From: Candidatus Shikimatogenerans bostrichidophilus
Lineage (GTDB): Bacteria > Bacteroidota > Bacteroidia > Flavobacteriales > Blattabacteriaceae
Reading direction: 5' to 3'
Length of the DNA: 34,355 nt
Assembly: GCA_029851305.1 (NCBI GenBank)
Contig: CP099829.1
Coordinates: 162,124 to 196,478 of the forward strand
The notes beneath the pieces are model-generated. The model searched no databases, was not told the origin of the DNA, and was given only the letters and a program-made list of their open reading frames with translations. A program made the position numbers and the translations under genes. This document shows, piece after piece, positions 8,369 to 25,022 of this stretch (position 1 is the first letter of the stretch; every line of letters starts with the position of its first letter).

Positions 8369-9229
8369 ATGAAATTAATAAATGATAAAAGACTATTTAT
8401 AATAGATTCTTTTATATATATATATAAATATTATTATTATTATAAAAAGTTTTTTAAAAATAAATCTATAATATTAGGTTTTATAAATTTTATTTTAACT
8501 ATATTAATTGAAAAACAACCAACATATATTATTGTAGTTTTTGATGGAAAAATTAAAAAAAATTATAAAAAAAAAATATTTATAAATTATAAAATTAATA
8601 GAAAGAAACCCCCATTTAATTTAAAAAAAAATTTATTAAAAATAAAATATTTCCTTAATTTATTAAATATACCATATTATTCTATAAAATATATAGAAGC
8701 TGACGATATTATAGGTAGTTTAATTTATAGTAGCGAAAAATTGGGTTATACTAACTATATATACACAGAAGATAAAGATTATTATCAATTAATATCTAGA
8801 AAAACTTTTATAATAAAAAAAAAATTTTTAATTGATATTAATTATATATTGGAAAAATATAATATTAATTCAATAGATCAATATATAGATCTAATTAGTT
8901 TAATAGGAGATAAAAGTGATAATTTATCAGGTATTCCGTATATAGGTATAAAAACTGCAAGTAAATTATTAAAAAAATATAATTCAATTGAAAATATTTA
9001 TTTAAATATTAATAAAATTAACCCAATAATAAAAAAAAGGATAATTCACTATAAATATTTAGTTCTTTTATCTAAAAAAATTATTAAAATTAATAAGAAA
9101 ATAAAATTTAAAAAAAAAATTATACGTAGTAGATTAAAACTTAGTAAAAATAAAATTATTGAAATTTTAAATAAAATAGATAAGTTATTTTTTAAAAAAA
9201 AAATTTTTTATTTAAATAAATATATATGA
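8369..9229 (+). CDS. Stand-alone 5'-3' exonuclease (DNA polymerase I N-terminal domain)
   Basis: This 286-residue protein covers the 5' nuclease (FEN-type) domain of DNA polymerase I, which removes RNA primers and flaps. Visible metal-site motifs: IEADDIIG (109-116), TEDKD (133-137), GDKSDN (180-185) and the helix-hairpin-helix GIPYIGIKTA (188-197). An early aspartate (D13 in FIIDSF) matches the first acidic ligand. There are no 3'-5' exonuclease or polymerase domains, and a stop (TGA) ends the frame, so it is a single-domain relic or a dedicated flap nuclease. It overlaps the korA start by 4 bases (ATGA), suggesting coupled translation. Confidence 0.88.
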   Translation: MKLINDKRLFIIDSFIYIYKYYYYYKKFFKNKSIILGFINFILTILIEKQPTYIIVVFDGKIKKNYKKKIFINYKINRKKPPFNLKKNLLKIKYFLNLLNIPYYSIKYIEADDIIGSLIYSSEKLGYTNYIYTEDKDYYQLISRKTFIIKKKFLIDINYILEKYNINSIDQYIDLISLIGDKSDNLSGIPYIGIKTASKLLKKYNSIENIYLNINKINPIIKKRIIHYKYLVLLSKKIIKINKKIKFKKKIIRSRLKLSKNKIIEILNKIDKLFFKKKIFYLNKYI

Positions 9230-10959
9230 ATAATGATATTAGTATAATATTATCAGGATATTCAGGAGAAGGAATACAACATATGGGGTATCATTTATCT
9301 TATATAATATATAAAAACAATTATTATATAAAAACTTTTAGTGATATTCCTTCTGAAATTTTTTCTCCAACCCAAAAAATTACAGATATATCGGAGTTTA
9401 TTATTAAATTTTCTAGAAAAAAAATTATTTCTTATTTTAAAACTAAATATTGTATTTTACTATCTACAAATTATTTATCATTAAAAAAAAATATTGACAA
9501 AATAAAAAATAAGGGAGTAATAATAATAGATTTTGATAAAAAAAATTATAACTTTTTAAAAAATGATAAAATTTTATTAAAAAGAATAAAAAAAAAAAGA
9601 TATATAAAGTTAAATAGTGTTAATTATATAAATTTTAGTTTATTAATAAAGTATAAAATTAAAAAGTTATCTAATATAAATTTATTAAAAAATTCATTAT
9701 TTATAGGATTTCTGGTTTTTTATTTTAATTTATCTAAAAAATATTCAATATATTTTTTAAAAAAAAAATTTAAAAATAAAAATATTTTTTTTTTAAATTA
9801 TTATTTATTTAAAATAGGTATAAAAATAGGAGAAAAAAAAAAATTATTTTATAAAAATAACACTAAAATAGCTAAAAAAGAAATAGCTAAAAATTATAAA
9901 ATTATAAATGGGAATTTAGGTATAGTATTAGGTATAATTAGTAGTAGTATAAAATATAAAATAGGTATTTTTTATAGTAGTTATCCAATTACTCCATCTA
10001 TAACTATTACTAAATATTTAATTAAGAATAAAAATTATATAGATTTAAAAATTTTTAATGCAGAAGACGAGATAAGTGCTATATGTACTTCTATTGGGGC
10101 ATCGATAAATATAAAAAAACTTTTAGGAATTATAGCGACCTCAGGTCCAGGTATGTCTTTGATACAAGAATCTTTAGGTTTTGCTGTTGTATTAGAAATT
10201 CCATTATTAATTATTAATGTACAAAGAGTAGGTCCTTCTACAGGATTTCCTACAAAATTAGAACAATCAGATTTAATGCAGTCTATATATGGTAGACATG
10301 GAGAAGCTCCTATACCAGTGTTTTCAATAAATAAAATTAATAATACTATACATATAATATATAATATTATAAAAATATCATTAGAATTAAAAACTCCTAT
10401 AATAGTTTTAAGTGATATTTATATTGCTAATAATTTATCTTTATGGAATAAAATAAAATATAAAAATTTAAAATATAAAAAAATAAAAATAAAATCTGTT
10501 ATTAACAAAAAAAAATTTAAATGTTTAGGAGGATTAGTAAAAAATATAGATAAGCATCATGAAGTAATTAAAAAAAGACAAAATAAAATTAATTTAATTA
10601 TAAAAAATTATATTAATATTACGTATATACTAAAAGGTAATAAAAATGGTAATATACTAGTTATTAGTTGGGGCTCTACTTATGAAATAATAAAAGAATC
10701 AATTTATTTTTTAATTAAAAAAAAATATAAGATAGGATATTTACATTTAATATGTTTATATCCATTACCATCTAATTTAATAGAAAAAATTAGTAAAAAA
10801 TATAATAAAATTATAATTTTTGAATTAAATAATAAACAACTTTTTTATATTATAAAAAGTTATTGTAAAATAAATATAAAACTTTATAATGTAAATAAAA
10901 TGACAGGGTACCCTTTTACTAAATTAGAAATCATTAAAAATATAAAAAAAATATTATAA
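9226..10959 (+). CDS. korA: 2-oxoacid (2-oxoglutarate):ferredoxin oxidoreductase, fused gamma/alpha subunit
   Basis: CoA-dependent oxidative decarboxylation of a 2-oxoacid with ferredoxin as acceptor. It is 577 residues; Bacteroidota homologues are about 600-620. The N-terminal gamma domain (1 to about 195) has SGYSGEGIQHMG (10-21) and FSDIPSEIFSP (38-48). The alpha domain follows, with YPITPS (253-258), ATSGPGMSL (304-312) and QRVGPSTGFPTK (333-344), which carry the thiamine pyrimidine and substrate-binding segments. The thiamine-pyrophosphate beta subunit (korB), usually the next gene, is absent: the convergent dnaB follows with a 6-base overlap. The substrate (2-oxoglutarate or pyruvate) cannot be told from sequence alone. 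Confidence 0.9.
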   Translation: MNNDISIILSGYSGEGIQHMGYHLSYIIYKNNYYIKTFSDIPSEIFSPTQKITDISEFIIKFSRKKIISYFKTKYCILLSTNYLSLKKNIDKIKNKGVIIIDFDKKNYNFLKNDKILLKRIKKKRYIKLNSVNYINFSLLIKYKIKKLSNINLLKNSLFIGFLVFYFNLSKKYSIYFLKKKFKNKNIFFLNYYLFKIGIKIGEKKKLFYKNNTKIAKKEIAKNYKIINGNLGIVLGIISSSIKYKIGIFYSSYPITPSITITKYLIKNKNYIDLKIFNAEDEISAICTSIGASINIKKLLGIIATSGPGMSLIQESLGFAVVLEIPLLIINVQRVGPSTGFPTKLEQSDLMQSIYGRHGEAPIPVFSINKINNTIHIIYNIIKISLELKTPIIVLSDIYIANNLSLWNKIKYKNLKYKKIKIKSVINKKKFKCLGGLVKNIDKHHEVIKKRQNKINLIIKNYINITYILKGNKNGNILVISWGSTYEIIKESIYFLIKKKYKIGYLHLICLYPLPSNLIEKISKKYNKIIIFELNNKQLFYIIKSYCKINIKLYNVNKMTGYPFTKLEIIKNIKKIL

Positions 10960-12279
10960 GTTTTTAAATTTAGCTTGTGTTTTTATAAATTTTAATTTTA
11001 TATTGCCTAATTTTCCATTTCTATGTTTAGCTATAATTATTTCTGCTTGACCTTCGCATAATGTAGTATAATCATTATCCCAATATTTAAAACCGTAATA
11101 ATCTGGTCTATATAATAATAATACTATATCTGCATCTTGTTCTATTGCTCCAGACTCTCTTAAATCAGACAACATAGGTCTTTTATACCCCCCTCTAATT
11201 TCTACAGCTCTAGATAATTGAGATATAGCAATTATAGGAATTTTAAATTCTTTAGCAATATATTTAATATTTCTAGATATAGTAGAAATTTCTTGTTCTC
11301 TATTTTTTATTTTTATATCGTTAACATTAATTAATTGTAAGTAGTCTATTATTATAAGTTTAACATTATGTTTGTATATTAATTTTCTACATTTATTTTT
11401 TAAATCTATTAATGATAAATATGGAGAGTCGTCAATATATAAAGGATATTTTTTTATATTTTTTATTTTTTTTTTAAAAATTTTTAATTCTTTTTTTGTT
11501 AAGTTTATTGTATTTAATTTTTCATAACTTATTTTTGTTTCTAAAGTTATTAATCTAGAAATAATTTGATAATAAGACATTTCTAAAGAAAATAACCCTA
11601 TTGGTATATTTCTTTTTATAATATTTATAATTAAAGATAAAGCGAAAGAAGTCTTACCCATACCTGGTCTAGATGCTATTATAATTAAATCTGATTTTTG
11701 TAATCCTAATATTATATTATCTAACTTATTAAATCCTGTAGGAATATATAAAAAATTTTTATTATTTATCCTTTTTATAGTTTTAGGAATTAAATGTTTA
11801 ATTGATCTTAAATTGTTCTTTATATATTTTATATATATATCGTCAATATTTATTTGTATATAATTCAATAAATCTAATGTATTTGTATTTTCCCTATATG
11901 TTCTATTAATTATGGTAGTTGATAATTTAATTAATTTTCTTAAAATAAATTTTTCTATTAATATTTTAACATATTTTTCAATTTTATTAAAATTAGTATT
12001 ATTATTTATTATATATGATATATATATTTCTCCTCCTATAACATTTAATACATTATCTTTTTTTAATTCAGATATTAAAGTTAAAAAGTCAATTTTATTA
12101 TATTCATAGAACAATTTTTTAATGTATTTAAAAATAATTTTATTTTTTTTTAGATAAAAAAATTCTGGTTTTAAAATATCTATAACTTTTTCTAAACTTT
12201 TTTTATTTATAATTATAGATCCTAATACTGCTTCTTCTAATTTTATAGAATTAGGAGATTGTTTTTGTAAGTTTATAAT
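10954..12279 (-). CDS. dnaB: Replicative DNA helicase DnaB, no canonical start codon
   Basis: Hexameric helicase that unwinds DNA at the fork and recruits primase. The RecA-like domain has Walker A SRPGMGKTS (about residues 203-211), FSLEMS, a Walker B region IIIDYLQL, SQLSRAVEIRGGYKRPMLSDLRESG, and the C-terminal AKHRNG. The first internal start-type codon is TTG at 12114, but the frame is open upstream to the stop at 12316-12318 and encodes the conserved N-terminal collar: LQKQSPNSIKLEEAVLGS then ILKPEFFY and IFKYIKKLFYEYNKIDFLT. No ATG, GTG, TTG or CTG precedes that segment. I place the start tentatively at the ATT at 12279 (441 residues, close to the family's 450-500); ATA at 12312 or 12276 is also possible. 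Minus strand, directly after pheT. Confidence 0.88.
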   Translation of the reverse strand: MINLQKQSPNSIKLEEAVLGSIIINKKSLEKVIDILKPEFFYLKKNKIIFKYIKKLFYEYNKIDFLTLISELKKDNVLNVIGGEIYISYIINNNTNFNKIEKYVKILIEKFILRKLIKLSTTIINRTYRENTNTLDLLNYIQINIDDIYIKYIKNNLRSIKHLIPKTIKRINNKNFLYIPTGFNKLDNIILGLQKSDLIIIASRPGMGKTSFALSLIINIIKRNIPIGLFSLEMSYYQIISRLITLETKISYEKLNTINLTKKELKIFKKKIKNIKKYPLYIDDSPYLSLIDLKNKCRKLIYKHNVKLIIIDYLQLINVNDIKIKNREQEISTISRNIKYIAKEFKIPIIAISQLSRAVEIRGGYKRPMLSDLRESGAIEQDADIVLLLYRPDYYGFKYWDNDYTTLCEGQAEIIIAKHRNGKLGNIKLKFIKTQAKFKNL

Positions 12280-14533: not shown

Positions 14534-15685
14534 TTAATTTTTAATATTCATAAGGATTATAAATATTTTTTGTGTCTTTTTTTTATATTTAATAAATATA
14601 TAATTCTTTTTTATATAAATTGTAATTATTTCTTTTTTTATATTTATTAATATTTTTATTAAATAATATAAATTAATTTTTAGGTTTATAGTTTTACCAT
14701 GGAAATGAACATATTTTACTATCTCTTTAACTTTAATTAATCTTGTTTTTAAGTATAAAATTATAATATTGTTAATATTATATATTTTAATATTTATTAT
14801 ATTTATAATATTAATTTTATTAATTATATTATATAATTTAATTAATTTATTTAAAAATTTTTTTTTATTTATTTTTAAAATAAAAAAATTCCTATTAATT
14901 ATTTTTTTTATAAATAAAAAAGTTTTTTTTTTTTTTATTTTTTTTAATTTAAATCCTAAGATATTATTTTTATATTTAAAGTATATAAAATTTTTATATA
15001 TATATATATATATATATTTTATTCTTTTTTTAAATACAGCTTTATATACATATATTGCATAATTTGATAATTTATATATATTAAATTTTAATTTTTTTTT
15101 ATTATATATATTTATTTTAGTTTTAAAAAAGACAAATTTATAATCAGTAATATATAATGTAATTTTTTTTTTATATAAAATTAAATAAAAATTAAAACTT
15201 TTTATAATTTTATTATTTATTTTTAATCCTAATAATACAAATTCAATATTTTTTATAAGTTTTTTATTATTTATAATAATAAAAAATTTAATTTTTTTAA
15301 TTTTTAAAAAAAAATTTTTTTTATAAAAAATATGTATAGGTATTTTATAATAAAATTTATTTGGTCTATATATATATATATTGTTTTTATTTAAAATAAA
15401 ATTTATTTTTTTTTTATTATTAAATAAAAAAATTTTAAATAAAAAATTTAAATTATTAATATAATATGTATTTAATTTATTGAAATTTAATCCTAAATAA
15501 AAAGATAATAATAAAATATAGTTTTTATCTTTGATAAAAAAATAAATTTTTTTTTTAAAAAAGAATATATAATTATTATATTTATAATTTAAAGGTGTAT
15601 TTAAAAGAAATTTATTATTATTATTAAATAAGCTAAAATTATAAAAATTTTTAATAAATTCATTATTATATAATTTTATTTTCAT
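14534..15685 (-). CDS. dnaN: DNA polymerase III beta subunit (sliding clamp), very divergent
   Basis: Length (383 residues; clamps are about 365-385) and scattered signatures fit DnaN, the ring that tethers the polymerase. Domain 2 block: FVLLGLKINNKIIKSFNFYLILYKKKITLYITDYKFVFFK resembles the clamp segment GV.FE...L.LVATD.HRL, given here in part: ITLYITDYKFVFFK. Domain 3: NRNFFILKINKKKFLNKLIKL, then GKTINLKINLYYLIKILINI resembles I.FN..YL...L..I, and the end KIFIILMNI resembles the clamp terminus with its MPM-type strand. The protein is over half Lys/Ile/Asn/Tyr/Phe, so the match is by pattern only. A pure TA run (about 14996-15017) lies inside. First gene of the dnaN-pheT-dnaB cluster, divergent from tRNA-Asp. 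Confidence 0.7.
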   Translation of the reverse strand: MKIKLYNNEFIKNFYNFSLFNNNNKFLLNTPLNYKYNNYIFFFKKKIYFFIKDKNYILLLSFYLGLNFNKLNTYYINNLNFLFKIFLFNNKKKINFILNKNNIYIYRPNKFYYKIPIHIFYKKNFFLKIKKIKFFIIINNKKLIKNIEFVLLGLKINNKIIKSFNFYLILYKKKITLYITDYKFVFFKTKINIYNKKKLKFNIYKLSNYAIYVYKAVFKKRIKYIYIYIYKNFIYFKYKNNILGFKLKKIKKKKTFLFIKKIINRNFFILKINKKKFLNKLIKLYNIINKINIINIINIKIYNINNIIILYLKTRLIKVKEIVKYVHFHGKTINLKINLYYLIKILINIKKEIITIYIKKNYIFIKYKKKTQKIFIILMNIKN

Positions 15686-15853: not shown

Positions 15854-16618
15854 ATGTATAGTATCAAAAAACAATTAGAATATATATACAGTATCCATAT
15901 TTTTGAAAAAAAAATTAAAGATTTTAAAGAAGAATTAAAGTTTATTCCTAATTTAAAAATTAAAAAATCTTATAAAATATATAAAAAAAAATTCTTAAAA
16001 TATAAAAATAAATATAAAAAATATATAAACCTTAAAAATTTTTTTAAAAAAAAAAGTATAAAAAATTATAATTTATCAAAAAAATATAGTCGTCAAAAAA
16101 AATTTGTTACAACATTTAAAGATTTAATAAAATTAAATGAACAAATAAAATATGCAATTCTTAAATATAAATTGTCTAAAAAAAGAATAAAATTTTGTAA
16201 TAAAAAAATATTTTCTTTTTTAAAAAGAAAAAAAAAAAATAAAAATAAATTTTTAAAATTTTATAAGGGAATTAAAAAAAAAAAGACAATAAATTCTAAA
16301 ATTAAAAATGATATAAGGAAAAAAATATCTAATATAAAAAAAGAATTAAAAAGTTATATAAAAAGAATAAAAAAATATAATATTTACAAAAATTATATTT
16401 ATATAAAAAAAAAATCTAAAGATAATATAGGGATTTTATCAATATATAAAAATAGGTCTGTAGAAAATGTATATTTAACTATACCTAAATATAAATATTA
16501 TAAATTATGTAGAAGAAAGAAAATTTTATATGATTACTATACTGGAAAAATTTTAATAGATGATATTTTTTCAAAAAAAATTAAAAATAAAATAAATAAT
16601 AAACTAATTAATAATTAA
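15854..16618 (+). CDS. C4-type zinc-ribbon family coiled-coil protein (cysteine ligands lost)
   Basis: The 254-residue protein matches the Bacteroidota zinc-ribbon domain-containing protein (CT398/HP0958-like family) in order and length. It starts with QLEYIYSIHIFEKKIKDFKEEL, followed by a long Lys-rich coiled coil containing SRQKKFVTTFKDLIKLNEQIK (the NNREYDALNKEIE-like hinge). The C-terminal head reads RSVENVYLTIPKYKYYKLCRRKK and YDYYTGKILID, matching FTIPPQ..EI..RK.I..DE.SGRILVD. The four zinc cysteines are not seen (a single Cys in LCRRKK), as I recall for Bacteroidota members. Function in this phylum is unclear; relatives act in envelope or RNA-related roles. Downstream of tRNA-Asp; its end overlaps trxA inside a palindrome. 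Confidence 0.75.
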   Translation: MYSIKKQLEYIYSIHIFEKKIKDFKEELKFIPNLKIKKSYKIYKKKFLKYKNKYKKYINLKNFFKKKSIKNYNLSKKYSRQKKFVTTFKDLIKLNEQIKYAILKYKLSKKRIKFCNKKIFSFLKRKKKNKNKFLKFYKGIKKKKTINSKIKNDIRKKISNIKKELKSYIKRIKKYNIYKNYIYIKKKSKDNIGILSIYKNRSVENVYLTIPKYKYYKLCRRKKILYDYYTGKILIDDIFSKKIKNKINNKLINN

Positions 16619-17138: not shown

Positions 17139-18449
17139 ATGGAAAATATTAATAAAATTAAAGGTACTATTGATTTATATAATAAAAAATATATAATAGT
17201 AAAAAAGATTATAAATACTATAAGAAATGAATTAAAGTTATATGGATATACTCCTATAAAAACACCATCTATAGAAAATTCTAAAATACTTTTAAAAACG
17301 GATAATAAAATTATATATTATATATATAATGGAAAGAAAAAATATAAAAAATTTTTAATTTTTGATTTAACTATCCCTTTAATAAGGTTTTTGTTAAATA
17401 ATTATAATAAAATTATTTTTCCATTTAAAAAATATCAAATACAAAAAGTATGGAGAGGAGAAAATACACAATATAATAGATATAGAGAATTTTATCAATT
17501 CGACGTTGATATTGTTACATTCAAAAAAGATTACAGATATATAATAGAATTAGAATTAATAACATTGTGTGAAAAAATATTTAAATCTTTTAAAATAAAT
17601 GTTACTTTATTAATAAATGACAAAAATATATTATATGGATTATGTAAAATTTTTAAAATAAAAAAAAATAAATGGGATAAATTTTTAATTATTATAGATA
17701 AAATAAAGAAAATAAATATAAAAAAAATTATAAATATTTTAATAAAACAAAATTTTATTTTAAAAAAATATATAAAAAAATTAATTAAACTATATAATAT
17801 AGATATTTATTATGATAACGAAAAAAAAATAAATATTTTAAAAAAAATTTTTAAGAAAACTAGTATAGGAATAAAAGGCGTAAAAAATTTGTTAAAATTA
17901 TTCAATCATATAAAAATAATGAAGTTAAAATATATAAATTTAAAAATAAATTTTTTTTTGTCTAGAGGATTTAATTATTATAATAGTATAATATTTGAAA
18001 TTATATCAAATAAAGATTCTTTATCTATATTAGGTGGAGGTCGATATGATAATTATATAAAAATAAATAATAGAAATACTTATTATATAGGAATGTCTTT
18101 TGGAATATATAGAATATATAATATTTTAAAAAATAATATTAATTTTATAAAAGAAAAAGACTCTATTAAAGTATTATTTGTTAATTTAAATCAAGATTAT
18201 AATATATATATATATTATAGAAATAAATTAAATAATTATAAAATAATCAATGAAATATACCCTTATTATGATAAAATAACTAAACAAATAAAATATGCAA
18301 TTAAAAAAAACATAAATTTTTTAATTTTTTTAGGTAAAAAGGAACTTAAAAATAAAATTATAAAATTAAAAAAAATCAATACCCATAAAGAATATATTTT
18401 TAAAAATATAAATAAACTTATAATATTTTTAAAAAAAAATTATAAATAA
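17139..18449 (+). CDS. hisS: Histidyl-tRNA synthetase
   Basis: Class II synthetase for tRNA-His, 436 residues (family about 420-460). The start KIKGTIDLY matches the conserved (K/R)GT.D. Motif 2 is VWRGENTQYNRYREFYQFD (104-122). The histidine-specific loop is SRGFNYYNS (275-283, for RG.DYY.G), and GGGRYDN (299-305) follows; the C-terminal anticodon domain includes VLFVNLNQDYN and LIFLGKKEL. Its end overlaps the end of dnaG by 10 bases. Confidence 0.97.
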   Translation: MENINKIKGTIDLYNKKYIIVKKIINTIRNELKLYGYTPIKTPSIENSKILLKTDNKIIYYIYNGKKKYKKFLIFDLTIPLIRFLLNNYNKIIFPFKKYQIQKVWRGENTQYNRYREFYQFDVDIVTFKKDYRYIIELELITLCEKIFKSFKINVTLLINDKNILYGLCKIFKIKKNKWDKFLIIIDKIKKINIKKIINILIKQNFILKKYIKKLIKLYNIDIYYDNEKKINILKKIFKKTSIGIKGVKNLLKLFNHIKIMKLKYINLKINFFLSRGFNYYNSIIFEIISNKDSLSILGGGRYDNYIKINNRNTYYIGMSFGIYRIYNILKNNINFIKEKDSIKVLFVNLNQDYNIYIYYRNKLNNYKIINEIYPYYDKITKQIKYAIKKNINFLIFLGKKELKNKIIKLKKINTHKEYIFKNINKLIIFLKKNYK

Positions 18450-18469
18450 TATAATTTATTTATAATTTT
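18436..18469. terminator. Perfect 14-bp inverted repeat at the hisS/dnaG junction
   Basis: Arms 18436-18449 and 18456-18469 are exact inverted copies around a 6-base loop (TATAAT). The left arm holds both stop codons (hisS TAA 18447-18449, dnaG TAA read from 18442 to 18440). The stems are pure A/T, so stability is low and chance is a real possibility in this composition. The position at a convergent junction is the reason to list it. Confidence 0.35.
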
Positions 18470-20236
18470 ATTTTTTTTTTTAGTTAAAAAAAAAATTTTA
18501 TATAATAATAAATTATTTTTTTTATTTTTTTTTATTTTTTCCCTGTATAACTTAATATTTTTTAATAGTAAATAATATTTATATTTTAATATTATTTCAT
18601 TAATATCTCTAATAATTTTTTTATTAGAAATATTTTTTATATTATTTTTATAATTTATTTTTTTATAAACTGTTTTATTTTTTAATTTTTTTTTTATATT
18701 TATTAATAATAAACGATTTTTTTTTTTAAAAAACAGTATTTTATATTTATTTAATGTTTTTATAACAAAATTTAAAATCTTTTTTATGTTAACTATTTTA
18801 TTTTTTTTATTTCTTTTTTTAAGGATAAAAGTATAGTTTATAAAATTTTTAAATTTTTTTAAATAAAGAATTAATAATTTTTTATATTTTTTTATTAATA
18901 TATTAATATCAATAAAAAATTTATTTTTAGTATTTTGTATTTTATTTGTTATATTATTTACATTTTTTTTTACTTTAAATATTTCTTCATATATATTACT
19001 TTTTTGAAGATTAAACTCTTTAATTAGTTCTTGTATATAAAACTCTTTTATTAGTCCATTTTCAATATTTTGTATATTATTTAAAATTTTTTTTATAAAA
19101 GTATATTTTTTATATGGATTTCCATTATACAATAATTTTTTAAATTTTATTTGTTGTAATTTTATAAAATTTACGCTTTTTTTTTTAAAAAATAAATTAA
19201 AATTTATATTAGATTTTTTTTTAGATAGTATAAAAGTATTTGGATCTTTATTTTGGGGAAAAATAAAATATCTTATATTTACATTGTTTTTAAGAAATAT
19301 ATTAATATTTTTAATAGCAGCATTAATACCAGTTTCATCACCATCAAATAATACAATAACATTATTTGTAAATTTTTTAATTAAATCTATCTGTATTTTA
19401 TTTATATATGTACCTAAAGTAGATATAACATTTTTAATCTTGTTTTGATATAATGATAATAAATCCATATATCCTTCAACGATATAGCAAAATTTTTTTT
19501 TTAAAATATATGTTTTAGCTTCATATAAACCATATAGATTTTCACTTTTATTATATATTAAATTATTTGGAGAATTTATATATTTATTTTTTAAATAAGT
19601 ATTTAATGTTCTTCCTCCAAATCCTATTATATTTCCTTCTAAATTTTTAATAGGAAACATAATTCTATTTTTAAATAAATAAAAAAAATTTTTATTAATT
19701 TTAGTAAACAATCCAATATTTTTTAAAATAAAATTATTATAATAAATTTTTTTATGAGTTAAAAAATCTAAAGGATAAAAGTTTGGAGAATATCCTAAAG
19801 AAAAAATTTTAATTATTTTATTTTTTAGCCCTCTATTTTTTAAATACTGTAAAGCTATTTTATTTTTTTTTAATAAATTATTATAATATTTATTAAAAAT
19901 ATTTATAATTTTATATATATATAATTTTTTATTTTTTCTTCTTTTTACTATTGGGTTTGTGGAATAATTTATAAATTTATTTTTACTATATTTATTTTTT
20001 AAATATTTTATAGCCTCTATATAATTTAAATTTAAATAATACATAACAAATTTTATTAAGGTACCACTTTTACCAGAACTAAAATCTTTCCATATATTTT
20101 TTTTAGGACAAACCATCAAAGAAGGAAAAGTTTCCTTTTTAAAAGGACTAAAACCTCTATAATTATTTCCACATTTTTCAAGTTTTACAAAACTACTAAT
20201 AACTTTTACTAAATCAAATTTTGTTATATAAGTCAT
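18440..20236 (-). CDS. dnaG: DNA primase
   Basis: Synthesises RNA primers at the fork with DnaB. I start it at the ATG at 20236 (MTYITKFDLVKVISSFVKL), giving 598 residues. An in-frame ATG at 20323 would add 29 hydrophobic residues foreign to the family and overlap the divergent dapA-like gene. N-terminal domain: CGNNYRGFSPF..ETFPSL and IWKDFSSGKSG (about 22-57), without the usual zinc-binding Cys/His set, a pattern I associate with flavobacterial primases. Core: GFGGRTL (205-211), SPNNLIYNKSENLYG (222-236), TOPRIM EGYMD (254-258) and DGDETG (298-303). The C-terminal helicase-interacting part is poorly conserved. Confidence 0.95.
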   Translation of the reverse strand: MTYITKFDLVKVISSFVKLEKCGNNYRGFSPFKKETFPSLMVCPKKNIWKDFSSGKSGTLIKFVMYYLNLNYIEAIKYLKNKYSKNKFINYSTNPIVKRRKNKKLYIYKIINIFNKYYNNLLKKNKIALQYLKNRGLKNKIIKIFSLGYSPNFYPLDFLTHKKIYYNNFILKNIGLFTKINKNFFYLFKNRIMFPIKNLEGNIIGFGGRTLNTYLKNKYINSPNNLIYNKSENLYGLYEAKTYILKKKFCYIVEGYMDLLSLYQNKIKNVISTLGTYINKIQIDLIKKFTNNVIVLFDGDETGINAAIKNINIFLKNNVNIRYFIFPQNKDPNTFILSKKKSNINFNLFFKKKSVNFIKLQQIKFKKLLYNGNPYKKYTFIKKILNNIQNIENGLIKEFYIQELIKEFNLQKSNIYEEIFKVKKNVNNITNKIQNTKNKFFIDINILIKKYKKLLILYLKKFKNFINYTFILKKRNKKNKIVNIKKILNFVIKTLNKYKILFFKKKNRLLLINIKKKLKNKTVYKKINYKNNIKNISNKKIIRDINEIILKYKYYLLLKNIKLYREKIKKNKKNNLLLYKIFFLTKKKNKIINKLYYL

Positions 20237-20295
20237 TTTTATTTTTTTATAATTAATAATTATAAATTTAATAAAAAAAATAAAACTTATATATA

Positions 20296-21174
20296 ATGAA
20301 AAAAATAAAAATTTATATACCATTAATTACTCCATTTGATAAAAATTTAAACATTGATTATTTATCTTTAGAAAAATTAATGTTATACATAATAAATTTA
20401 GAAAATATAGATGGTATAATTTTATTTGATAAAATTTCAGAATATTATACTTTTACTGTTAATGAATACATAGATATAATTAATTGTATTTTAAATAATA
20501 ATAAAAATAAAATTAATATAATTCTAAAAATTAATAACATATATAATTATAAAGATTTAATAAATATAATAGATTTAAAATTTTATAAAGATATAAATAT
20601 AATTATGTTAGATTTTCCAAATTTAAATAATAAATATAAATATGATATTATAAAAAATTATAATTATTTATTTAAGTATTATAGATATTTATCTTTTTAC
20701 TTTTATTTAAATAATAAAAAGTATATAGATGAAAATATTCTTTTAGAAATAAAAAATTCAAATAAAAATTTTATAGGAATTATAAATAAAACAAATTATA
20801 TATTTAATAACTATAATTTAATAAATAGTTTATCTATTATAATTTATAATGATTTATTATTTTATAAACTTATTAATTTAAAACCCTATGGTATAATATC
20901 CCCGATATTTTTGTTTTTATTTAATTATATTTATAATAATATAATTTTAAATATAAATAACAATAAATTATTTATATATGATAAAAATTACTATAGATTA
21001 ATAAAGTTTATATATATTTTATATAAAAAAATAAATCCAATTTCAGGAATAAAATTTATTTTAGATAGTATTAATTTATGTGAACCTTATGTAAAATATC
21101 CAATTTATAATGTAGATAAACTTTTAGAATATCAAAAAATAAAAAAAATTTTTAATAAAATTATAATATCATAG
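20296..21174 (+). CDS. DapA-fold protein (dihydrodipicolinate synthase family) with altered active site
   Basis: It is 292 residues, the exact length of DapA, starting IYIPLITPFDKNLNIDYLSLEKLM (in part: PLITPFDKN..ID..SLEKL), and GIISPIFLF near 199 matches the GvISv..N block. DapA condenses pyruvate and aspartate semialdehyde in lysine/DAP synthesis using a Schiff-base lysine in GIKE and a Thr pair in GTTGE. Here the lysine position reads GIINK (161-165, Ile at the lysine site) and the GTTGES block reads FDKISEY (44-50). Catalysis by the known mechanism is therefore unlikely. The frame is intact and ends cleanly 13 bases before rpoZ, so it is not an obvious pseudogene. Another aldolase-superfamily role is possible. 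It has no lysine-pathway neighbours. Confidence 0.6.
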   Translation: MKKIKIYIPLITPFDKNLNIDYLSLEKLMLYIINLENIDGIILFDKISEYYTFTVNEYIDIINCILNNNKNKINIILKINNIYNYKDLINIIDLKFYKDINIIMLDFPNLNNKYKYDIIKNYNYLFKYYRYLSFYFYLNNKKYIDENILLEIKNSNKNFIGIINKTNYIFNNYNLINSLSIIIYNDLLFYKLINLKPYGIISPIFLFLFNYIYNNIILNINNNKLFIYDKNYYRLIKFIYILYKKINPISGIKFILDSINLCEPYVKYPIYNVDKLLEYQKIKKIFNKIIIS

Positions 21175-21187
21175 AAAATCTTAAATA

Positions 21188-21511
21188 ATGAAAATAAAAA
21201 AAAATCAAAACATAAATTTAATGTTTAATATTAGGAAGTTAGAAAAAATTTCTCAAACAAACATTTATAAAATTATTAATATATTATCAAAAAGAGCTAA
21301 TAAAATTTATATTGATATTAATCTTTTTTTAAAAAAAATAAATTTACAATGCTTTAATTTAAAAAATGAAAAAAAAAATAAAATGTATATATATTTAAAA
21401 AAAAAAATTAAAAAAATTAATGAATTACCTTATCCTAGTAATTTATCTATTTTAGAATTATTAAATAAAGAATTAATTTATAAAAATAAAGGTAATGGAA
21501 AAAAAAATTAA
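21188..21511 (+). CDS. rpoZ: RNA polymerase omega subunit (Bacteroidota Rpb6-like)
   Basis: Small subunit that helps hold the beta-prime chain. The 107-residue protein matches Bacteroidota omega: IYKIINILSKRANKIYIDI (for ETV.IISKRANQI..EIK), then ELPYPSNLSILELLNKELIYKN (for LPKPT..AI.E.L.GKIYYR; shown here in two parts, ELPYPSNLS and ILELLNKELIYKN). It overlaps aroB by 17 bases, so translation is probably coupled. The partner rpoC is at the right end of the window. Confidence 0.82.
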   Translation: MKIKKNQNINLMFNIRKLEKISQTNIYKIINILSKRANKIYIDINLFLKKINLQCFNLKNEKKNKMYIYLKKKIKKINELPYPSNLSILELLNKELIYKNKGNGKKN

Positions 21512-22568
21512 TAATATTATTATTAGTGATTCTTTAAAAAATTTATCTATCTATTTAAATAACAATAAATTTTCTAATTTAATAATTTTATTAGATATTA
21601 ATATTGAAAATAAATGTTTAGATTTACTTTATAAAGATGTTCCTATATTAAAATTAAAAAAAACAATAATTATTAAAATATTATCAGGAGAAAGATATAA
21701 AAGTTTAAAAACTTGTATAAAAATATGGAAAATTTTTATAAAAAAAAATATAGATAAAAAAAGTTTATTAATAAATTTTGGAGGAGGAGTTGTTACTGAT
21801 TTAGGAGGGTTTATAGCTAGTTTATTTAAAAGAGGAATTAATTTTATTAATGTGCCTACAACTTTATTAGGTATGGTAGATGCATCTATAGGAGGTAAAA
21901 ATGGGATAAATTTTTATAAGTATAAAAATGAGATTGGGGTAATAAATAATCCTATATATACTATAATAAATTATAGATTTTTAGATAGTTTGCCTAAAAA
22001 AGAAATATATTCAGCTTTTGGAGAAATTTTAAAATATGGATTAATATATAATAAAAAATATTTTAATTATATAAAAAAAATAAAAATTTATGGGATCGTA
22101 AATTGGGTAAAAATAATATATATAGCGGTAAAAATTAAAAATAAAATAGTTGATAAAGACCCTAAAGAAATATTAGGTATAAGAAAAATTTTAAATTTTG
22201 GGCATACTATAGGCCATGCTATAGAAAGTTTATTTTTATTAAAAAAAAAGATAATAACACATGGAGAAGCCATTTCATTAGGTATGATATGTGAGTCTTG
22301 GATATCTAAAAAAGTTAATAATTTAAGTAATAAAGACTATAAAACTATTTGTAAAGTAATATTAAGTTTTTTTAAGATTAGAAAGATAAAAAAAAAATAT
22401 TTTAAATATATTTTAAAAATAATTAAAAACGATAAAAAAAATTATAATAATAAAATATATTTAGTTTTATTAAAAAATATAGGATCAGCTTCGTATAATC
22501 ATGAAGTTCACGAAAAGTTAATTATAAAAAGTATAAAAAAAATGAATGATTTATATAAAAAAAAATAA
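21495..22568 (+). CDS. aroB: 3-dehydroquinate synthase
   Basis: Second step of the shikimate pathway: cyclises DAHP to 3-dehydroquinate with NAD and a divalent metal. It is 357 residues, normal. The sites look complete: GERYKS (65-70), GGGVVTDLGGF (96-106), PTTLLGMVDASIGGK (121-135), NEIGVINNP (145-153), FGEILKYG (175-182) with the metal-ligand Glu, KILNFGHTIGHAIES (231-245) and HGEAISLGM (256-264). That preservation in a genome this eroded implies selection for aromatic amino acid supply. No other aro gene is in the window. Confidence 0.97.
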   Translation: MEKKINNIIISDSLKNLSIYLNNNKFSNLIILLDINIENKCLDLLYKDVPILKLKKTIIIKILSGERYKSLKTCIKIWKIFIKKNIDKKSLLINFGGGVVTDLGGFIASLFKRGINFINVPTTLLGMVDASIGGKNGINFYKYKNEIGVINNPIYTIINYRFLDSLPKKEIYSAFGEILKYGLIYNKKYFNYIKKIKIYGIVNWVKIIYIAVKIKNKIVDKDPKEILGIRKILNFGHTIGHAIESLFLLKKKIITHGEAISLGMICESWISKKVNNLSNKDYKTICKVILSFFKIRKIKKKYFKYILKIIKNDKKNYNNKIYLVLLKNIGSASYNHEVHEKLIIKSIKKMNDLYKKK

Positions 22569-22583
22569 TAAAAACACAAGTAT

Positions 22584-25022
22584 ATGAAACCATATGTTAA
22601 AAAAACTAATATTAATGATGAAATAAAATCTTCATATATAGATTATGCTATGTCTGTTATTATATCTAGAGCATTACCAGATGTAAGAGATGGATTAAAA
22701 CCAGTACATAGAAGAATTTTATATTCAATGTATAAATTGGGTATATATAATAATAAAAACTATAAAAAGTCCGCACGTATAGTAGGGGAAGTTTTAGGAA
22801 AATATCATCCACACGGGGATAAATCAGTATATGATAGTATAGTAAGAATGGCTCAAAAATGGAATATAAGATATAAATTAATAAGTGGACAAGGAAATTT
22901 TGGATCAATAGATAATGATCCTCCTGCTGCAATGAGATATACAGAAATTAAATTGGCTAAGATTACTGAAGAAATGTTAAAAGATATAAAAAATAATACA
23001 GTAGATATGAAATTAAATTTTGATGATTCTTTGGTAGAACCTATAATTTTGCCTACTAAACTACCCAATATTTTAATAAACGGAGGAACTGGAATAGCTG
23101 TTGGTATGGCTACAAACATGCCACCACATAATTTAATAGATACAATAAATGCTATATGTAAATATATAGATAATAATGATATAAGTATAGATAAATTAGC
23201 TTATTATATTAAAGCCCCTGACTTTCCTACTGGAGGAATTTTATTATCTTATGATGGTGTAAATAAGGCTTATAAAACAGGAAAAGGGAAAATAATTATT
23301 AGATCAAAATATTTTATAAAAGAAACTAAAAAAAAAAAATATATAATTATTAAAGAAATCCCGTATCAAGTTATAAAAAGTAATTTAATAAAAAAAATTT
23401 TTTTCTTAGTAAAAACAGGTAAAATAGAAGAAATATTAAATATAAAAGATGAGTCTAATAAAAATGGAATAAGAATACTATTATTATTAAAAAAAGATAG
23501 TATAATAGAAATAGTAATTAATAAACTTTTAAAATATAGTGACCTACAAATTAGTTATCATATAAATAATATAGTATTAGTAAATGGAAATCCTAAACGC
23601 TTAAATTTAAAAGAATTAATTTATTATTTTATAGAACATAGGAATGATGTAATTATTAATAAAGCAAAATATTATTTATCCTCTTTTAAAAAAAAATTAC
23701 ATGTATTAAAAGGATTTATTAAAATATCAAATAAAATAGACAAATTATTTAAACTAATTAAAAAATCTATATCATATAATGATTCTTTTAACAAAATAAA
23801 AAAAAAATTTAATTTATCTAAACTACAAATAAAATTTATTTTAAATACTAAATTATATAAACTAACTAATAAAGAAGTAAATAATCTATTTAAAGAATAT
23901 AAAGATGTAAAAAAGAATATAATAAAAAATAAAAGAATTATAAATTCAAGAAAAGAAAGAATGAATATAATTAAAAGCGAATTATCTAATATAAAAAAAA
24001 CATATGGAGATAATAGAAGAACATTAATAGATTATTCTAGCTATGAATATTTAAATTATAAAAAAGAAAATTTAATAGAAAACTTTAAAGTATTATTAAC
24101 TATTTCTCATAAAGGATATATTAAAAGGACTATGCTATCAGAATATAAAACTCAAAATAGAGGTGGTGTAGGTAATAGGGGTATGACTATAGATACATAC
24201 GATAAAATTGAACATATTATAGTAGCTAATAATCATGATACTATTATATTTTTTACAAAATTTGGTAAATGTTATTGTTTAAAAGTATATGAAATTCCTA
24301 TAGGAGATAAATTATTTAGAGGTAGAGCAATACAAAATTTTATAAAAATAAAAAAACATATTAAAACCTATATATTAATAAAAACGTTAAATGATAAGAA
24401 TTATATAGATAATCATTATGTAGTTATGGTAACATATAATGGAGTTGTTAAAAGAACAGTCTTAAATAAATATTCAAAAATTAGAAAAAATGGGATAAAT
24501 GCTATAACAATTAAAGAGAATGATACTTTATTAGAGTCTAAATTAACTAATGGAAATTCTCAAGTTTTAATTGCTATAAAAAGTGGAAAAGCTATAATTT
24601 TTAATGAAGATAATATAAAATCAACTAATAGAAATACTATAGGTGTTAAAGGTATAAATATAAATAAAATAAATGATAAAGTTATAGGTATGGTATGTTT
24701 TAAAAAAAACACTAATAAAGATGTATTAGTGGTATCTGAACATGGATATGGAAAACGGACTTTATTAAAAAATTATAGAGTAACTAATAGAGGTTGTGTA
24801 GGGGTAAAAACTATAAATATTACTAAAAAAACTGGTAAATTAATTTCTATTTTAGTAGTATCTAATAAAGATGATATAATAATAATAAAAAATACTGGTA
24901 TATTATTAAGAATAAATGTTTCATCTATAAGAATTGTTGGTAGAAATTCTCAAGGGGTAAAATTAATTAAATTAAATAAAAATGAAAAAATAGCTGATGT
25001 AGCTTTAGTAAAAAAAAATTAA
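22584..25022 (+). CDS. gyrA: DNA gyrase subunit A
   Basis: Breakage-reunion subunit of type II topoisomerase, 812 residues (GyrA about 830-880). N-terminal winged helix: SRALPDVRDGLKPVHRRILY (29-48), KKSARIVGEVLGKYHPHGD (61-79), GQGNFGSIDNDPPAAMRYTE (102-121) with catalytic Tyr119, and NGGTGIAVGMATNMPPHN. A C-terminal beta-pinwheel with repeated RTxL blades is present. The GyrA box reads QNRGGVG instead of QRRGGKG, which still favours GyrA over ParC. A lysine occupies the position of the quinolone-determining Ser83. It starts 15 bases after aroB. Confidence 0.93.
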   Translation: MKPYVKKTNINDEIKSSYIDYAMSVIISRALPDVRDGLKPVHRRILYSMYKLGIYNNKNYKKSARIVGEVLGKYHPHGDKSVYDSIVRMAQKWNIRYKLISGQGNFGSIDNDPPAAMRYTEIKLAKITEEMLKDIKNNTVDMKLNFDDSLVEPIILPTKLPNILINGGTGIAVGMATNMPPHNLIDTINAICKYIDNNDISIDKLAYYIKAPDFPTGGILLSYDGVNKAYKTGKGKIIIRSKYFIKETKKKKYIIIKEIPYQVIKSNLIKKIFFLVKTGKIEEILNIKDESNKNGIRILLLLKKDSIIEIVINKLLKYSDLQISYHINNIVLVNGNPKRLNLKELIYYFIEHRNDVIINKAKYYLSSFKKKLHVLKGFIKISNKIDKLFKLIKKSISYNDSFNKIKKKFNLSKLQIKFILNTKLYKLTNKEVNNLFKEYKDVKKNIIKNKRIINSRKERMNIIKSELSNIKKTYGDNRRTLIDYSSYEYLNYKKENLIENFKVLLTISHKGYIKRTMLSEYKTQNRGGVGNRGMTIDTYDKIEHIIVANNHDTIIFFTKFGKCYCLKVYEIPIGDKLFRGRAIQNFIKIKKHIKTYILIKTLNDKNYIDNHYVVMVTYNGVVKRTVLNKYSKIRKNGINAITIKENDTLLESKLTNGNSQVLIAIKSGKAIIFNEDNIKSTNRNTIGVKGININKINDKVIGMVCFKKNTNKDVLVVSEHGYGKRTLLKNYRVTNRGCVGVKTINITKKTGKLISILVVSNKDDIIIIKNTGILLRINVSSIRIVGRNSQGVKLIKLNKNEKIADVALVKKN

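Follow-up and report, generated by a model that had tools for sequence, protein, structure and literature searches.

The DapA-like gene at 20296–21174 of the window probably encodes a pseudoenzyme or repurposed barrel that descends from DapA and is no longer a DHDPS, and the role for which it is selected would be non-catalytic. The window forms the final 34,355 bases of the single 196,478-base contig of Candidatus Shikimatogenerans bostrichidophilus, a symbiont of wood-boring beetles, and its genome (G000) is one of the nine genomes of the genus that were compared. By descent the protein is DapA; catalytic site and pathway are both lost, yet selection preserves an intact protein, which therefore probably does a different job. 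The features concerned are listed below.

18440–20323, reverse strand: dnaG primase, divergent neighbour of the DapA-like frame (profile match)
20296–21174, forward strand: DapA-derived protein of 292 amino acids, probably a (beta/alpha)8 barrel, DHDPS catalytic residues lost (open reading frame, profiles, alignment, structural matches)
20428–20439, forward strand: codons 45–48 (DKIS), where the GTTG loop with T44 and T45 would stand (alignment)
20527–20541, forward strand: codons 78–82 (KINNI), end of predicted strand beta3 (K78-I79-N80 invariant in all eight orthologues)
20782–20784, forward strand: codon of Ile163, opposite the Schiff-base lysine, K161 of E. coli (alignments; position computed from the frame's start)
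20788–20790, forward strand: codon of K165, candidate shifted lysine, Lys in only six of the eight orthologues (alignment column)
21188–21511, forward strand: probable rpoZ (RNA polymerase omega), downstream neighbour, a 107-aa ORF (motif, and order as in relatives)
21495–22568, forward strand: aroB, 3-dehydroquinate synthase, used as yardstick (profile match)
22584–25022, forward strand: gyrA (profile match)

The frame starts with ATG and is intact over 292 residues, as the first-pass annotation had read it, and the DapA ancestry proposed there is borne out by profile evidence. The protein matches NCBIfam dapA (TIGR00674) with E 7.3e-12 and a score of 44.7 (equivalog cut-off 206), a model that is matched by all eight genus proteins, while its 21.8 bits against Pfam DHDPS (PF00701) lie slightly under the cut-off of 22.1; both matches rest mainly on the N-terminal 77 residues. 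PF00701 alone misses the gene in four of the eight genomes that hold it, all of which are found with the protein as query. When the eight-member genus profile was aligned with 10 canonical DapAs by hhalign, 279 columns were covered (probability 99.2, E 7e-20). Trees unite the eight genus proteins with full support, and three pairs within them (G000+G007, G003+G004 and G005+G006) are also found in the tree of aroB. Orthologues are present in the isolates HHAM, ESQU, SUNI, LCAV1 and RDOM of the same symbiont, HHAM being nearest to the window's genome (85% in the DapA-like protein). No convincing second DHDPS-family gene was found in the window's genome, where a weak second match at 127544 (E 0.006, 11.5 bits) falls in an ORF that by eye is tRNA nucleotidyltransferase-like.

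The ancestral order dapA-(bamD)-rpoZ was seen by eye in 17 of the 20 relatives' stretches, including all seven of the same family, where the lipoprotein gene sometimes found between the two is presumably bamD. The window has the same arrangement, the DapA-like frame being followed by the 107-aa ORF, which reaches only E 0.082 against PF01192, below the cut-off. The profile alignment together with the gene order thus makes the gene the positional and phylogenetic orthologue of dapA; on this evidence it is a vertically inherited flavobacterial dapA. On the other side, dnaG as listed shares 28 bases with the beginning of the DapA-like frame, but its orthologues start close to the position of Met30 inside that listed frame (about 20236).

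The protein is probably DapA-like in fold as well. A weak structure model built from six sequences (mean pLDDT 61.5, pTM 0.58) has eight strands (residues 6–9, 40–44, 74–79, 100–106, 133–138, 159–164, 180–183 and 198–200), and with this low-confidence model the top Foldseek match is N-acetylneuraminate lyase (NAL) 5zjm (E 5.3e-9), followed by DHDPS, and the best VIA match is 3qfe (Z 14.4, rmsd 4.0, 197 aligned). A second model, of the ESQU orthologue (pLDDT 53.5), has seven strands and the same DHDPS and NAL families on top; the matches from both programs are mostly DHDPS/NAL-like with few other barrels, and the absence of other families there proves nothing. The likeness to DapA/DHDPS (TIGR00674, PF00701) thus comprises length, full-length profile alignment, gene order with rpoZ, eight predicted strands (weak model) and DHDPS/NAL proteins as best structural matches, whereas the Schiff-base lysine, T44, T45, Y133, R138 and the pathway partners are missing. 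NAL shares the fold superfamily and holds the top Foldseek rows, but the symbiont protein matches the dapA model better (E 7.3e-12) than that of NAL (5.3e-7), and the catalytic lysine, which NAL uses in common with DapA, is not there. Type I dehydroquinase AroD (PF01487), which is also a lysine barrel, had no match in any of 12 genomes; type II AroQ is present in all nine genus genomes.

The catalytic residues of E. coli DapA, which we take to be K161, T44, T45, Y107, Y133 and R138, were confirmed as letters at these numbers in its sequence and compared with a control of 21 DapAs, consisting of E. coli and 20 Flavobacteriales sequences from 20 of the 45 non-genus genomes with matches, no stretch being dropped. 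Ile163 lies opposite K161 in MAFFT and hhalign alike, in agreement with the first reading that the lysine of GIKE had been replaced. K161 and T45 are found in 21/21 canonical proteins and in 0/8 genus proteins, which carry I, L or F at the lysine site; T44 is found in 19/21 (Ser in the other two) vs 0/8, and Y107 in 21/21 vs 2/8. R138 and Y133 are likewise present in 21/21 vs 0/8, where 19 of the 20 Flavobacteriales controls had been picked by a motif containing both residues (G048 was added by hand) and a two-residue gap in the YNVPxRTG segment makes the residue opposite Y133 uncertain. That stretch is gone, with no Tyr-Asn-Val-Pro pattern left in the genus proteins. The threonine loop reads FDKISEYY in the window's protein, and the replacement of the GTTGE threonines, claimed at first for this protein, extends to all eight orthologues. 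The canonical set has 59 columns with an identity of at least 95%; in 34 of them the canonical residue is gone from all eight genus proteins, and in 13 it is kept by at least seven, E47, D188, G201, S204, K253 and P270 (DapA frame) being kept by all. As the catalytic loss is common to the eight orthologues, neither an error of sequencing nor a change within one strain accounts for it; the loss is old, and is placed on the stem of the genus. Judged by these alignments, the protein lacks what defines a DHDPS enzyme. Lysine mutants of E. coli DapA keep traces of activity; the absence of any activity in the symbiont protein is presumed, as is the order of the losses.

The pathway around DapA is gone too. 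The search for asd, dapB and lysA proposed in the first-pass annotation found none of them in the nine genus genomes, as the domains Semialdhyde_dhC (Asd) and DapB_C and the LysA C-domain gave no match there at E up to 1; the former two are present in six of seven other family genomes searched (the exception is G012), and the LysA C-domain is positive in G009 and G018, of three related genomes searched. Mur_ligase_M is absent from all nine genus genomes, eight of which have weak Aminotran_1_2 matches. With the Asd, DapB, LysA and Mur-ligase domains absent, the substrate source of DapA and its downstream steps are therefore lost. The published genomes of S. bostrichidophilus range from 172,971 to 200,377 bp, and the symbiont is described as keeping almost only the shikimate route (PMC10284843); neither 'dapA' nor 'dihydrodipicolinate' occurs in the main text of that paper.

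The DapA-like gene is under purifying selection. In pairwise maximum-likelihood comparisons tested against omega = 1, dN/dS is 0.114 for G003-G004 (2lnL 70.8), 0.112 for G005-G006 (2lnL 46.4) and 0.396 for the closest pair, G000-G007 (2lnL 8.8), the corresponding aroB values being 0.113, 0.117 and 0.200. Six of the 28 DapA-like pairs had runaway dS (saturation) and were not used; omega in the remaining 22 lies between 0.037 and 0.396, and 2lnL is nowhere below 8.8. Ranked from the lowest dN/dS among reciprocal-best ORF pairs, a yardstick that includes at least one antisense ORF (22853–23119, inside gyrA), the gene stands 17th of 24 in G003-G004 and 12th of 21 in G005-G006; it is highest, 27th of 27, in both window comparisons that involve G000 (G000-G007 and G001-G000), so that constraint may be weakening there. 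Eight of the nine genus genomes carry the frame open, with no internal stop. In a neutral simulation the frame stayed open in 22 of 2000 copies at 0.05 substitutions per site and in none of the 2000 copies simulated at 0.1, at 0.2, at 0.5 or at 1.0, and an open frame by drift is thus not credible.

The stem between the genus and its relatives is 1.29 + 1.27 = 2.56 changes per column for the DapA-like protein and 0.41 + 0.047 = 0.46 for aroB, about 5.6 times longer in the former; the taxon sets differ slightly (8+5 and 9+6, respectively), and unequal amino-acid composition makes long branches imprecise. A larger tree gives the same DapA-like split as 2.71 + 0.86. Crown branches are alike (G000/G007 0.088/0.090 for the DapA-like protein vs 0.084/0.077 for aroB). 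A long stem followed by an aroB-like crown indicates that an old constraint was lost and a new one then imposed.

Where the new constraint lies was examined on the active-site face, defined as the C-terminal strand ends and loops from the predicted strands of the weak model. Canonical-conserved positions are concentrated there (25/48 vs 38/244 elsewhere, p 2e-7), whereas genus-invariant positions are not significantly so (14/48 vs 46/244, p 0.12), although the odds ratio is still 1.77 and eight sequences give little power. This result favours loss of the active-site face, and is also compatible with a small new site given the eight sequences. New invariants on the face are P9, F44, K78, N80, Y83, I183, N185 and P203; K78, N80, N185, D186 and S202 of the C-face are invariant in the genus proteins, K78 and N80 occurring in none of the 21 canonical DapAs. 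A kept dimer surface at helix alpha2 was considered, as residues 46–69 are invariant at 10/24 positions vs 51/268 elsewhere (p 0.016), but is not claimed because a window of 24 residues with the same density arises in 1038 of 5000 shuffles.

The gene is missing from G008, whose nearest relatives are G003 and G004. The gap between hisS and aroB is only 363 bases there and contains a weak remnant of the dnaG end (tblastn E 1.4e-4 over 22 residues of the protein from SUNI) as well as a remnant, recognised by eye, of the rpoZ end; neither DHDPS nor DNAG_N has a match elsewhere in this genome. One deletion would be the simplest account of the joint absence of dnaG, the DapA-like gene and the greater part of rpoZ. 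No DapA-like gene is present either in G012, which belongs to the family, has an aroB locus of 17% GC and may represent S. silvanidophilus, so the gene is not universally needed. As to dnaG itself, it is present in seven of the nine genus genomes, with no DNAG_N match in G002, G008, G009, G012 or G018, so that the primase is being lost in the clade, and rpoZ looks degenerate by eye in G002, where the SKRA motif reads SKIS. A link of the DapA-like gene to DnaG was rejected, as G002 has the gene without dnaG and its presence does not follow DnaG.

Among other explanations, the main rival, which we consider rather unlikely, is a repurposed enzyme with a new active site at the strand C-ends (e.g. 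K78, N80, D106, N185, D186 and S202) acting on a metabolite of the host or of the shikimate branch. Changes of chemistry are frequent among (beta/alpha)8 barrels; this readiness, the long stem followed by constraint, the residues K78, N80, Y83 and N185 (invariant in all eight and absent from the 21 canonical DapAs) and D106 (D in seven, E in one) speak for it, but the C-face is not significantly richer in invariants than the rest, no reaction suggests itself, and the extreme A+T content favours Lys and Asn, so that invariance of AAA/AAT codons is weaker evidence. A lysine shifted to K165, which the first reading had thought conceivable, or to K78 would allow a working DHDPS or pyruvate aldolase; K165 lies only two residues from the old site and K78, with which beta3 ends, does not vary. 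However, K165 is replaced by Q in G001 and by S in G005 (column K,K,Q,S,K,K,K,K) and T44, T45, Y133 and R138 are gone in all eight, for which reasons K165 is unsupported, and with Asd, DapB and LysA in none of the nine genomes the substrate and product of a DHDPS would have no partner. We regard the relocated lysine as highly improbable.

Slow decay, in which the gene is a leftover under relaxed selection awaiting deletion, has in its favour the absence of the gene in G008 along with dnaG and the start of rpoZ, and the dN/dS of 0.396 in the closest pair, the highest of 27. Yet the frame is open in all eight genomes that hold the gene, dN/dS across relatives (0.40 down to 0.11 in two independent pairs, like aroB) is significantly below 1, simulated neutral copies lose the frame at once, and the catalytic loss is old, on the stem; decay, early or slow, is thus improbable. 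The least credible proposal is that the protein substitutes for shikimate dehydrogenase (AroE), whose absence from the symbiont is reported together with the inference of a functioning pathway (PMC10284843), the DapA-like gene being near aroB. It was rejected, as G008 and G012 keep aroB and aroQ without any DHDPS-family match and would lack the same AroE step, the fold matches are DHDPS/NAL barrels rather than a dinucleotide-binding fold, and the neighbourhood is inherited, rpoZ following dapA in relatives.

A pseudoenzyme under selection for a non-catalytic role is therefore the most economical account, the likeliest function being protein or ligand binding. Of the first interpretation, the part in which the barrel was kept for a non-catalytic or altered role is supported by selection, fold, pathway loss and the burst on the stem, and its early-decay and K165 parts fall away. 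The ancestral symbiont of bostrichid beetles probably lost all other steps of the lysine/diaminopimelate route, and the Schiff-base lysine, the relay of threonine and tyrosines and the substrate arginine would have disappeared from the protein. After a burst of change, the protein would have come under purifying selection again, of a new kind but of ordinary strength. It would now be a DapA-fold protein unable to work as DHDPS, selected as a folded scaffold or as a ligand- or partner-binding protein. Arabidopsis PDX1.2 is a comparable (beta/alpha)8 pseudoenzyme, a barrel without catalytic lysines retained by selection, but PDX1.2 joins active paralogues, whereas the symbiont genome has no other convincing DHDPS-family gene.

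A broader reading, offered tentatively, is that DapA neofunctionalised in a shrinking genome of 173–200 kb after the loss of its pathway, acquiring either a new active site (K78/N80/D106/N185/D186) or a binding role new to the symbiosis, and that eight of the nine sampled lineages then retained it. Descriptions of extreme genome reduction usually deal with loss, and the DapA-like gene is a clean candidate for a new role gained in the course of it; where such genomes carry a gene labelled 'dapA', nothing about lysine follows from the label. Searches of the open-access PMC literature found no paper linking dihydrodipicolinate synthase with pseudoenzymes, and none that brings together three of the subjects Shikimatogenerans, dapA, lysine biosynthesis, pseudoenzymes and neofunctionalization.

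Several other frames of the window may be mentioned. The dnaB ORF at 10954–12114 has 235 aa from its ATG, in which form its match is restricted to the helicase half (206–433) of DnaB, while a 386-aa version requires a TTG start. The 254-aa ORF at 15854–16618 has no Pfam or NCBIfam match and has reciprocal best hits in six of eight relatives' stretches; the ORFs at 37–717 (226 aa) and 14534–15685 (383 aa), both without NCBIfam match, have reciprocal hits in seven of eight relatives and in G008 only, respectively. At 9226–10959, a 2-oxoacid:acceptor oxidoreductase alpha subunit is retained in this minimal genome.
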